29,974 bases of DNA from the IMG/VR virus record IMGVR_UViG_3300032117_000114, positions 1-29,974 of that record; one strand, given 5' to 3'. This document shows, one piece after another, positions 24,126 to 29,735 of this stretch. This DNA comes from a virus. The notes under the pieces are model-generated. The model was not told where the DNA came from. It did no database searches and saw only the letters and a list, made by a program, of their open reading frames with translations. The number at the start of each line of letters is the position of its first letter. Position 1 is the stretch's first letter. Position numbers and translations under genes: made by a program.

Positions 24126-24636
24126 CTATTGTTACAGGCTGTGAACCTTTGGGTATGTTGATCGTAATACTAAACTGTGGTTTGCCGTCCCCAGCACTAG
24201 CTTCTTTTTTAGGCGCTTTGATCCCTGCAATCTCAACGAGTGAGTTAAGCACCGCTTGCTTTTGAAGAATAGTACTGTCTGTACCTATGGTTTGCTTGAA
24301 TAACTCATTCATCAACTGATCTGCCATAAGGCCAGCTTTAAGCCTAAACGTAACGCCTTCTTTCTCAAACTGCGCACGTTGATTTTGAACCGCACTAATG
24401 AACGGCCCCCACTGAGAGATTTGCTCCCAGCGTTCATTAGTCAAGCCTAAGCGTCTTGCAATATCGGCCGGATTCTCCAACCCTGCAGCGCACTCCCACA
24501 CCAACTGGGGCGGGACATCCAACGTTACATGAGGTTGACTAATGTCTGCTGGAAGCGCAAACTCATAACTGTCTAAAAACCTAGATAGATCGTCTTCATC
24601 CATTTTGCTTTGGTTTTGAATTAGCAAGGAATCCAT
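24118..24636 (-). CDS. terS: Terminase small subunit (putative)
   Basis: A 172-residue protein. Residues about 45-85 look like a helix-turn-helix (CAAGLENPADIARRLGLTNE, then RWEQISQWGPFISAVQNQR) as used by small terminases to read the packaging site. A helical middle (LMADQLMNELFKQT; LQKQAVLNSLVEIAGI) and a short beta C-terminus (QFSITINIPKGSQPV) follow. AGGAGA is well spaced before ATG 24636, which lies inside the 3' end of the ribbon-helix-helix gene. It is directly followed by the large subunit with an eight-base overlap. Assigned by domain pattern and position. Confidence 0.85.
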   Translation of the reverse strand: MDSLLIQNQSKMDEDDLSRFLDSYEFALPADISQPHVTLDVPPQLVWECAAGLENPADIARRLGLTNERWEQISQWGPFISAVQNQRAQFEKEGVTFRLKAGLMADQLMNELFKQTIGTDSTILQKQAVLNSLVEIAGIKAPKKEASAGDGKPQFSITINIPKGSQPVTIDG

Positions 24637-24742
24637 TCAGCGCTCTCCTCATTAATTCTGACATCGTTAGTCCAGTTTCTTCAGACTGCTTACGCAGTTC
24701 AATGATAAGAGGCTCAGGTAAATAAAAGTTGTATCGTTTCAT
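24596..24742 (-). CDS. Small ribbon-helix-helix-like protein
   Basis: A 48-residue gene in the gap before the terminase genes, overlapping the small terminase gene by 41 bases. It begins MKRYNFYLPEPLIIELRKQS, then EETGLTMSELMRRALNGFLA. This is the classic Arc/CopG-like pattern: a short basic beta strand followed by a helix with L-x-x-x-x-x-x-G-x-(T/S)-x-S-E-(L/I)-x-R-x-A-(L/I). Such proteins form dimers that bind DNA through the strand and often repress their own operon. Its ATG starts right after the preceding stop (TAAATG). A regulatory role over the terminase region is inferred. Confidence 0.78.
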   Translation of the reverse strand: MKRYNFYLPEPLIIELRKQSEETGLTMSELMRRALNGFLANSKPKQNG

Positions 24743-26220: not shown

Positions 26221-26239
26221 GATTTTAATGTGTGTCTTA

Positions 26240-26249
26240 ATCCTAGGAT
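26240..26249. promoter_or_regulatory. Palindrome ATCCTAGGAT upstream of the unknown gene
   Basis: ATCCTAGGAT is a perfect ten-base palindrome 35 bases before the ATG at 26285, loosely flanked by TGTGT and ACACA. It shares the CCTAGG core with the palindrome at 26175-26184, 65 bases upstream. The pair could be sites for a dimeric DNA-binding protein, or this one could be part of a leader hairpin. Confidence 0.35.
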
Positions 26250-26284
26250 ACACATACACAATCAATTTACTTAAGGGGAAACTC

Positions 26285-26692
26285 ATGGAAAATAATCAGC
26301 TCACAATTATCGACGTAGATGCAACTTACTCATTGTCGGTTAGAAAGCCCGAAAAAGTCGGTTCGCTATCAATGCTTATCGCCTTCGGTGATTCGACTAG
26401 CCGTAAAGGTGTAGCCGAAGATCTTTTAACTCGCCAATACTTAAGTGGTACTTATCGTCCCGTACTTCGTGACCTTGGTAATAATTTGCTTAACTCTAAA
26501 ACAATCGTATTCTTTCCCGAAATTACCGAGTCCGGTGCATTGAATAAAACCCGCTTTATTGACGCATGTAAACGCCTCTATAACGCATTGAACAATGGTA
26601 AAGAGTTAAAAGGTAAAAGGGCTTTCTACTTCGGATTCTTAAAGCATGTAGTTGAAACTGCTACTGTTCGTGAAACTGTTCTTGAGGCTTAA
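26285..26692 (+). CDS. Hypothetical early-region protein
   Basis: A 135-residue protein. AAGGGGAAACTC lies just before the ATG at 26285, which fixes the start; an upstream in-frame ATG at 26228 lacks a comparable site. The N-terminal part looks beta-rich (QLTIIDVDATYSLSVRKPEK) and is followed by a mixed region (TYRPVLRDLGNNLLNSKTIV) and a C-terminal helical, basic part (RFIDACKRLYNALNNGKELK; AFYFGFLKHVVETATVRE). I do not recognise the family. It follows the foldable leader and palindromes and is followed by a small gene 64 bases later. Early expression is inferred from strand and position only. Confidence 0.75.
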   Translation: MENNQLTIIDVDATYSLSVRKPEKVGSLSMLIAFGDSTSRKGVAEDLLTRQYLSGTYRPVLRDLGNNLLNSKTIVFFPEITESGALNKTRFIDACKRLYNALNNGKELKGKRAFYFGFLKHVVETATVRETVLEA

Positions 26693-26756: not shown

Positions 26757-26972
26757 ATGCGAGTACATTTATTGCCTAAAGGTGTAAGTATTGCACCATT
26801 GCCTAGTTTAGTTAAGATTGAACCTGTAAGCAAACTCCAAGGTGGTTTACCGCCTGTGCCGTATCGTTCAGCTAATCGTGCTATTGTCGGATTTCATAAG
26901 CGTTCAATCGTTCGGTGGTCAGCGTACACCAAGTCGGTTCGTGCCCCGTCAGCGCCAAAAATCATACGATAA
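26757..26972 (+). CDS. Small basic protein, unknown
   Basis: A 71-residue protein rich in Arg, Lys, Pro and Val (MRVHLLPKGVSIAPLPSLVK; SANRAIVGFHKRSIVRWSAY), with a strongly positive charge and no acidic cluster. GAGG lies about nine bases before the ATG. Its stop is three bases before the first GGAATATTC-type palindrome. The basic nature suggests nucleic acid binding, possibly at that palindrome cluster, but this is speculative and no known domain is recognised. Confidence 0.62.
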   Translation: MRVHLLPKGVSIAPLPSLVKIEPVSKLQGGLPPVPYRSANRAIVGFHKRSIVRWSAYTKSVRAPSAPKIIR

Positions 26973-26974
26973 AT

Positions 26975-27304
26975 GAATATTCCAGTGTATTCTTATAGAA
27001 TAAATAAGAGAATATTTGAAATGTGTTGATTTCATTAGGGTTTTTGGTATGAATATTCCAATATTCCAATATTCTATACAAATACATACATATATACATT
27101 TATGTGTTGCTCTCATATGGTGATGAAATGCGGATACATATAATCCATTACATACATCACACACGAAAGTCGTCTGACCCTTTTCAAAACTTGGAATATT
27201 GGAATATTCAAAATCCGAATTCTCAAGATGCCCTATTCATGGGGCTTTCCGTGTAAGTAACCACTCACGAGAATATTCCAGCCCTAAAAATCATTGGAAT
27301 ATTC
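26975..27304. repeat. GGAATATTC palindrome cluster, candidate origin/control region
   Basis: Eight copies of a nine-base word built on the palindrome GAATATTC lie in a 330-base non-coding stretch. They are: 26975-26983; three back to back (AATATTCC units) at 27051-27075; two back to back in the opposite sense (GGAATATT units) at 27193-27209; 27271-27279; and 27296-27304. A spaced version, TATTC-TTATA-GAATA, is at 26988-27002. Between the two tandem groups is an AT-rich segment (27076-27110). Such iteron-like arrays mark replication origins or multi-site operators. No function is proven. Confidence 0.55.
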
Positions 27305-27427
27305 ACCCCATCGAATTCTTTAATCTCACTCCTGCATAGCAGGAGTATACAAGTCAATTTCCCTGTTGTCAACTGGCTTGTATCTTTTCAACGACAACAA
27401 TCCAAACTTACTTACGGAGCACCTATC
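27305..27427. promoter_or_regulatory. Leader region with hairpin and inverted repeats
   Basis: ACTCCTGC (27328-27335) and GCAGGAGT (27339-27346) form an eight-pair stem with an ATA loop. Immediately after it, ATACAAG (27347-27353) and CTTGTAT (27377-27383) are an inverted repeat 23 bases apart, and GTTGTCAAC (27365-27373) is a small odd palindrome between them. There is no T-run, so the hairpin is not an intrinsic terminator. The region ends with ACGGAGC before the ATG at 27428. It looks like a promoter/operator or a structured 5' leader for the small-gene train. Confidence 0.5.
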
Positions 27428-27619
27428 ATGGCTTTACACCATCTAACTTTACGCAGAGACAACCCCGAGTACGCCGACATTGACTACGAATTTGATGAGT
27501 TCGTGATCGACTTTCCAGAAATGGCGGACTACATCATGGAGGAGGAACGCCACTTTACTTGGTATCTCAACCAGTTAACCATGCCCCATAACGCATTGAA
27601 TTGGAGAAATTATGTTTGA
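27428..27619 (+). CDS. Small acidic protein, unknown
   Basis: A 63-residue protein with a strongly acidic middle (NPEYADIDYEFDEFVIDFPE) and an aromatic C-terminal part (HFTWYLNQLTMPHNALNWRN). GGAG lies eight bases before the ATG. It is the first of a train of seven tiny genes. It overlaps the next gene by eight bases (ATGTTTGA). Small acidic phage proteins can mimic DNA or bind host enzymes; nothing here confirms that. Family not recognised. Confidence 0.65.
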   Translation: MALHHLTLRRDNPEYADIDYEFDEFVIDFPEMADYIMEEERHFTWYLNQLTMPHNALNWRNYV

Positions 27620-28730: not shown

Positions 28731-29735
28731 ATGAAATATTCAGATATTGAGCGTTCAGTCAAAGCCAACTTTGCCAAGGGTAATTTACTTGTACCCTACA
28801 TCGTGGGTAAACCAGGTGGTGGTAAGTCATCCCTTGCCCGTGCAATTGTCAAGTCACTTGGCATCAAACCCGAGAGAGTTGTGGAGTTTAATCCTTCCCT
28901 GCGTGACCCAGTGGATATCATGGGTATACCTAGAACCGATGCGGATGTAGCCAAGTGGGTTCCGATGCCTGAGTTTTACCGTATTCGTGACGATGGTATC
29001 AATGAGCCGTGTGCGTTAATCATCGAGGAGTTAAGCGATGCGCCTATACCGATGCAAAATCCCATGTGTCGTGTCATCCTTGATCGTTGTGCGGGTGAGC
29101 TTAAACTACATCCTAAACTACACATCATTGCATCAGGTAATCGTACCGAGGACAAATCAGGTGCTAATCGTATGAGTACCAAACTGGGTAATCGTATGCA
29201 GACTTTAGTGTTCGACGAGAACCTAGACGACTGGTGTGCGTGGGCGTTGGAGTCTAGTATTGCAGTCGAGATGATTCAATTCCTCAGGTTCAGACCTAAC
29301 TTACTATCCGACTTTGACCCCAACCGCAGTATCAACCCGACACCAAGATCATGGGAGATGGCGAACCAAGTGGATACCGAGTTGCCTAGTGATCTTTACT
29401 TCTCCAACATTGCAGGTTGTGTGGGTGAGGGTGCGGCGGCTGAGTATACAGGGTTCAAGCGTATCTATGAGGGACTACCTAATATTGACGGCATCTTACT
29501 CAACCCAAGCAAGGCGCAAGTACCGACCGACCCAGCGATATTGTTTGCGTTGACTGGTGCTTTGGCTCATAAGTGTAGTAAGGATAACTTCGATAGAGTT
29601 ACCGAGTACATCGACAGATTACCAAATGACTTCCAAGTTATGTGTATCTATGATGCTCAGAAGATCAAGCCTGAGATTCGCAATACCAAGGCGTTCATCG
29701 CATGGTCTGTTAAAAATGCTAGTGTGTTAATGTAA
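28731..29735 (+). CDS. MoxR-like AAA+ ATPase
   Basis: This 334-residue AAA+ protein has Walker A at GKPGGGKS (residues 26-33), Walker B-like ALIIEEL (95-101; the first acidic residue is Glu, not Asp), and a sensor-1 region IIASGNR (133-138). A conserved R-x-S-T-x-x-x-x-R-M region follows (about 147-156; NRMSTKLGNRM). The pattern fits the MoxR/AAA_5 group, which remodel partner proteins, often together with a von Willebrand factor A-type protein encoded downstream. CGGAG lies about eight bases before the ATG. It is followed by another gene with AAGGAG. The phage role and partner are unknown. Confidence 0.87.
   Translation: MKYSDIERSVKANFAKGNLLVPYIVGKPGGGKSSLARAIVKSLGIKPERVVEFNPSLRDPVDIMGIPRTDADVAKWVPMPEFYRIRDDGINEPCALIIEELSDAPIPMQNPMCRVILDRCAGELKLHPKLHIIASGNRTEDKSGANRMSTKLGNRMQTLVFDENLDDWCAWALESSIAVEMIQFLRFRPNLLSDFDPNRSINPTPRSWEMANQVDTELPSDLYFSNIAGCVGEGAAAEYTGFKRIYEGLPNIDGILLNPSKAQVPTDPAILFALTGALAHKCSKDNFDRVTEYIDRLPNDFQVMCIYDAQKIKPEIRNTKAFIAWSVKNASVLM

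Follow-up and report, generated by a model that had tools for sequence, protein, structure and literature searches.

What function is served by a cluster of short repeated boxes in a noncoding stretch of the genome of a freshwater bacterial virus? The stretch of DNA analyzed here (the window) comprises the 29,974 bases of an IMG/VR virus record. Its minus strand encodes a podovirus-like module (terminase, portal, major capsid, and internal virion protein), and a rightward module on its plus strand, beginning near 26.2 kb, contains the gene for a MoxR-type ATPase. The array (26975-27304) lies between an ORF ending at 26972 and one starting at 27428, in agreement with the coordinates and noncoding location given in an earlier note on this DNA, which had offered a replication origin, a centromere-like site, and an operator as possible functions. 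The 8-bp tandem spacing and opposite orientation that it had described are likewise borne out; the two tight groups (27051-27074 and 27193-27209) are head-to-tail 8-bp repeats in mirror orientation, and the 20-nt arms at 27050-27069 and 27191-27210 form a perfect inverted repeat.

To reach the count of eight nine-base words given in the earlier note, one must include near copies; exact GAATATTC is found at five positions of the window (26975, 27051, 27202, 27271, and 27297), always inside the array, against an expectation of 0.47. The better unit is the 8-mer AATATTCC/GGAATATT, with seven exact copies in the 330 bp of the array, weaker copies at 27010 and 27068, and a single exact copy elsewhere in the window (11709). 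In 500 order-3 Markov simulations, this 8-mer appeared on average 1.6 times per window and at most three times within 330 bp. Nor is the word equally common elsewhere in the genome, an outcome that the earlier note had named as counting against its reading; in a near-identical 45.8-kb record, the box words are nearly absent outside the cluster, being found there only as isolated single sites. The cluster is thus real. A search of Rfam retrieved no structured-RNA match for the element, the parts of which are listed in Table 1.

Table 1. Parts of the repeat element and two genes near it, in window coordinates
Feature	Positions	Strand	Remark
Outer-left box GAATATTCC	26975..26983	+	Position kept in relatives
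Weak outer-left box AGAATATTT	27009..27017	-	
IHF-like site AATCAACACATTT	27019..27031	-	One mismatch to WATCAANNNNTTR
Inner-left tandem, three 8-bp units, GAATATTCCAATATTCCAATATTC	27051..27074	+	
Spacer	27075..27192	.	Candidate unwinding region
CTGACCC short motif	27174..27180	+	Near inner-right tandem, kept in most relatives
Inner-right tandem, mirrored, GGAATATTGGAATATTC	27193..27209	-	
Outer-right box GAATATTCC	27271..27279	+	
Outer-right box GGAATATTC	27296..27304	-	
48-aa ribbon-helix-helix (RHH) protein	24596..24742	-	Adjoins terminase genes
MoxR-type AAA ATPase	28731..29735	+	First large gene right of cluster, synteny anchor

Using the MoxR ATPase as an anchor, we retrieved 57 related loci, and among those extending sufficiently to the left, 20 have a GAATATTC array 1.1 to 4 kb upstream of the ATPase. 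Other loci display the same layout at the same place with a different word (AATTTTCC, TGAATTTG, AATTAGAC, AATTATCC, or AATAATCC), and genomes reached via the primase yielded further arrays with AAATATCC, AATTATTG, AAAAAGAC, AATAAGAC, and CACTAGAC. In all, several dozen related viral contigs have the element at this place, as does the cultured Pseudomonas phage Rollin, in which a 9-bp version, TTGCATACTTTGCATACTTTGCATATT, is situated near the start of the record together with an IHF-consensus site. The layout that is kept consists of outer boxes, a putative bend site, an inner tandem of 8-bp period, a spacer, and the mirrored other half; the inner arms retain the same orientation throughout the relatives, and the gap between them is mostly 114 to 129 bp (92 bp in locus L045). 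Some arrays contain mixed-word tandems (CAATTAGACAATTAGACAATTATCCAAG), and in one locus, L236, the left arm is made of AATTAGAC and the right arm of AATTATCC, so that mixed arrays are the route by which the word drifts. Conservation thus applies to the architecture, while the box word itself changes. Hence, relatives do have a cluster at the same place, and the expectation that the word would be conserved while its flanks drift fails at larger distances.

The reach of the element has limits. In Rhizobium phage RHph_TM3_14A, an IHF-like pair is visible with no clear boxes; no array was found in two further genomes, G023 and G032; and searches of the most distant primase relatives (L259-L264 and L269) returned only chance-like hits. 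A hit in L256 also looks like a chance match, with no array visible there. The relatives in genome collections include contigs of Limnohabitans and Rhodoferax assemblies, which suggests that the hosts are burkholderial.

The surroundings of the array have features of their own. The gene directly upstream of it (26228-26692) is swapped in relatives for unrelated cassettes of at least four types, and the type of cassette is independent of the box word, so that a hot spot of gene exchange adjoins a conserved element; the product of this gene was accordingly discarded as a candidate reader of the boxes. A palindrome of the CTCCTGCGTACGCAGGAGTATA type is present near the array in the window (27329-27349) and in L015, L019, L021, L023, L036, L054, L056, and L230, upstream of the array in some genomes and downstream of it in others. 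The minus strand of the window has a strong match to a sigma70-like promoter at 27372-27344, and the arrays of one clade (L046, L051, L054, L056, and L233) are surrounded by dense GTGTATACAC/CATACACA repeats situated near the starts of small genes. The CTGACCC motif is found on one side of the spacer only, 12 to 16 bp from the inner-right tandem, in the window and most relatives. As for the spacer itself, the A+T content of its first 40 bp is 75% in the window and averages 59% in the relatives, against a background of 50%; the enrichment is thus clear in the window and only mild in the relatives, a point that speaks against an origin. Helical phasing of the inner distance was non-discriminating, as every test period looked significant because the inner lengths are conserved.

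The place between the outer and inner boxes is occupied by a match to the IHF consensus, WATCARnnnnTTR (PMC8407004). Exact WATCAANNNNTTR occurs 21 times in the cluster windows (1.7/kb) versus 11 times elsewhere in these loci (0.038/kb), the 21 matches coming from related loci and thus not representing 21 independent events. The window has an IHF-type site with one mismatch in its left arm and none in its right arm, and many relatives have the exact consensus at the place of the left-arm site. Between clades the site switches strand and its NNNN part varies, as would be expected of a real IHF site. In several relatives, an element of the AACCCGCATGGAT type takes the place of the IHF-type site. 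A 19-bp element with complementary ends, CCCAGTATCCATGCGGGTT, is also carried by many arrays where others have the IHF-type site (L255 at about 757-775, L019 at 3571 and 3743, L033 at 1468, L046 at 2323, and others).

The association of repeated boxes with IHF-type sites raises the possibility of a packaging site (cos or pac), at which the boxes would be targets of the small terminase or the neighboring RHH protein and the DNA would be bent by IHF. The model for this is lambda cosB, which has an IHF-binding site between the terminase sites R3 and R2 (PMC4856287). The box-IHF-box order indeed resembles R3-I1-R2 of cosB (PMC4856287), and the terminase operon, which also encodes the RHH protein, is about 2.3 kb from the cluster. 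However, one genome, G050, separates the array from the packaging genes. It shares the replication genes (DNA polymerase with 49% identity, SNF2 helicase, nuclease, and primase), it has no match to the terminase or portal of the window, and it nevertheless possesses an array, in which the boxes are GCGTTACGT and the two sides differ, one having a AACCCGCATGGAT element and the other an exact IHF site. It is therefore the replication module that the element follows. Furthermore, contig ends, which provide an indirect test of virion DNA ends, are scattered around the cluster and not located at it; neither the RHH protein nor a 172-aa TerS-like protein has positions that switch with the word; and the two-armed symmetry is unlike cosB. 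On these grounds, we regard a packaging role as quite unlikely.

The linkage to replication genes is also apparent in the near-identical 45.8-kb record, in which the region to the right of the cluster encodes a family A DNA polymerase, a PD-(D/E)XK nuclease, an SNF2 helicase, and a DUF927-domain protein of 986 aa. The cluster is at 19.7 to 20.0 kb of this record and the gene for the DUF927 helicase at 36.7 to 39.6 kb, about 16.6 to 17 kb to the right, and this helicase is present in all 14 genomes checked. The earlier note had predicted that cumulative GC skew should turn at an origin. In G001, G002, G003, G017, and G010, the turn comes no more than about 1.5 kb from the cluster; in G011 and the Rhizobium phage, it is only loosely near it, and G008 and G012 show no turn there. 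Since transcription also diverges at the cluster, the GC skew is weak evidence.

A profile of the 986-aa protein matches SCCmec Cch (PDB 5dgk; E = 2.6e-18) and SaPIbov1 Rep (8tch; E = 1.4e-7), the DUF927-type Cch being a known relative of SaPIbov1 Rep (PMC7581432). For its last 217 aa, we obtained a predicted model with a mean pLDDT of 81, for which the best PDB matches found by Foldseek were again 8tch and 5dgk, with a low TM-score of 0.33 to 0.37. Given that SaPI Rep recognizes the iterons of its origin via its C-terminal domain (PMC7581432), the equivalent region is a candidate reader of the boxes. Across 20 genomes, the distance between words correlates with the distance between helicase C-terminal regions when the remainder of the helicase is controlled for (partial r = 0.36, permutation p = 0.0005), in a test that does not fully remove shared ancestry, related genomes not being independent. 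A sliding scan over 26 genomes placed the peak of covariation with the word at helicase residues 801 to 925; with a same/different word score, this C-terminal peak is gone and moves to residues 726 to 800. Taken together, the divergence of the word appears to follow the C-terminal, DNA-binding-like part of the helicase and not the RHH protein. We also noted that the "putative integrase" of RHph_TM3_14A (MN988472.1, 42239-45322; L097/L098) overlaps the DUF927 primase-helicase match, and hence this name looks wrong.

Palindromic 8-bp boxes repeated with an 8-bp period are suited to RHH proteins of the MetJ/Arc kind. This fit, along with the presence in most relatives of one RHH protein adjoining the terminase, is what would favor an operator, to which the RHH protein would bind cooperatively, as MetJ does to met boxes, to control the rightward early operon. 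The RHH protein was an attractive reader in view of the 8-bp period, but covariation lends it no support: the residues of its DNA-contacting strand (R, N, and F/Y/H) are nearly constant while the words change, and the partial correlation between this protein and the word is weak (0.13, p = 0.08), with nothing left of it once the helicase C terminus is taken into account. Moreover, promoter-like sites are not enriched, the adjacent genes are swapped cassettes, and simple repression needs no two IHF arms, all of which makes an operator unlikely. Apparent RHH-like genes beside the Rollin and G050 arrays had no Pfam support at the cutoff.

RHH adaptors and clustered repeats are also typical of partition sites, and the array might on this account be a centromere-like site bound by an RHH adaptor working with a ParA or ParM ATPase. 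Against this, none of 13 genomes encodes a ParA-type ATPase in a search for PF13614, the one partition-ATPase profile covered, and only one of the 13 encodes an integrase, so a maintained prophage is unlikely; we consider such a site very improbable. The scarcity of integrases bears equally on an attachment site akin to lambda attP, in which the boxes would be arm-type sites for an integrase. The resemblance, consisting of arm sites and IHF sites flanking a core, is superficial; a tyrosine integrase occurs in only 1 of the 13 genomes, no common core was seen, and there is scarcely any likelihood that the array has this function.

Among the three options of the earlier note, an origin is clearly favored over a centromere-like site and an operator, because the element follows the replication module, has IHF-type sites, and comes from genomes that encode a helicase of the SaPI-Rep type, with the ParA-type ATPase absent from all 13 genomes. 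On the basis of these observations, the cluster is probably a replication origin of the PICI/SaPI kind, used by a large group of tailed phages and extended by outer boxes and IHF-type sites. In the mechanism that we envisage, the C-terminal domain of the phage DUF927 primase-helicase would recognize the 8-bp boxes, and in each arm the DNA from the outer to the inner boxes would be bent by host IHF. This bending would allow two helicase assemblies to form on the mirrored inner tandems and to melt the intervening spacer, where replication would start.

Comparison with known replicons is instructive in this regard. PICI origins always consist of two iteron sets flanking an AT-rich region (PMC6092414), and the origins of SaPIs and Gram-negative PICIs share with the present element this flanking of a central region by two sets (PMC6092414) as well as replicon-specific iteron words. 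The initiators too are comparable, in that the helicase homologue finds its best PDB matches in SaPIbov1 Rep and SCCmec Cch and in that specificity is tied to the initiator C-terminal domain in SaPIs (PMC7581432), as may be the case here. Unlike PICIs, the carriers are phage-type genomes of 45 to 63 kb, the boxes are 8-bp units accompanied by extra outer boxes and IHF-type sites, and the helicase is part of a 986-aa primase-helicase. The SaPI origin is located directly 3' of the rep gene, whereas the array is about 17 kb from the helicase gene; because this defining position differs, we call the element PICI-origin-like in its proposed working, yet not a member of that family. The putative SCCmec Cch/Cch2 origin offers a further likeness, having short direct repeats and a helicase (DUF927 for Cch, D5-type for Cch2) with a domain at its C terminus that binds double strands (PMC7581432), but has three 5-nt iterons on one side in place of two mirrored arms with IHF-type sites. 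The iteron origins of pSC101 and R6K gamma resemble the array in their repeated initiator sites, AT-rich region, and IHF (PMC5043065); they differ in having mostly direct repeats in helical phase and a DnaA partner, as opposed to an 8-bp period with mirror symmetry. Similarly, in lambda cosB an IHF site separates repeated sites for a protein (PMC4856287), but cosB is one-sided and adjoins the nicking site, whereas the array is two-sided and linked to a replication module. A literature search on P4 alpha found nothing relevant among the papers covered.

A statement from 2018 held that no other known bacterial replicon has the two-armed layout of the PICI kind. We tentatively propose, as a possibility that is somewhat short of an even chance, that a large, still unnamed group of tailed phages, for which IMG/VR contains more than 590 primase-helicase relatives, initiates replication at an origin of this kind, two-armed and bent by IHF, and that the word of this origin drifts together with the C-terminal domain of the helicase. 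As two distant relatives, Pseudomonas phage Rollin and Rhizobium phage RHph_TM3_14A, are cultured, this proposal is testable. If true, it would locate, to the base, the origin used by a widespread group of phages and would link the replication modules of phages with those of PICIs and SCC elements. It would also provide a natural series of initiator-origin pairs, with about ten natural word variants from which origin recognition by DUF927 helicases could be learned.
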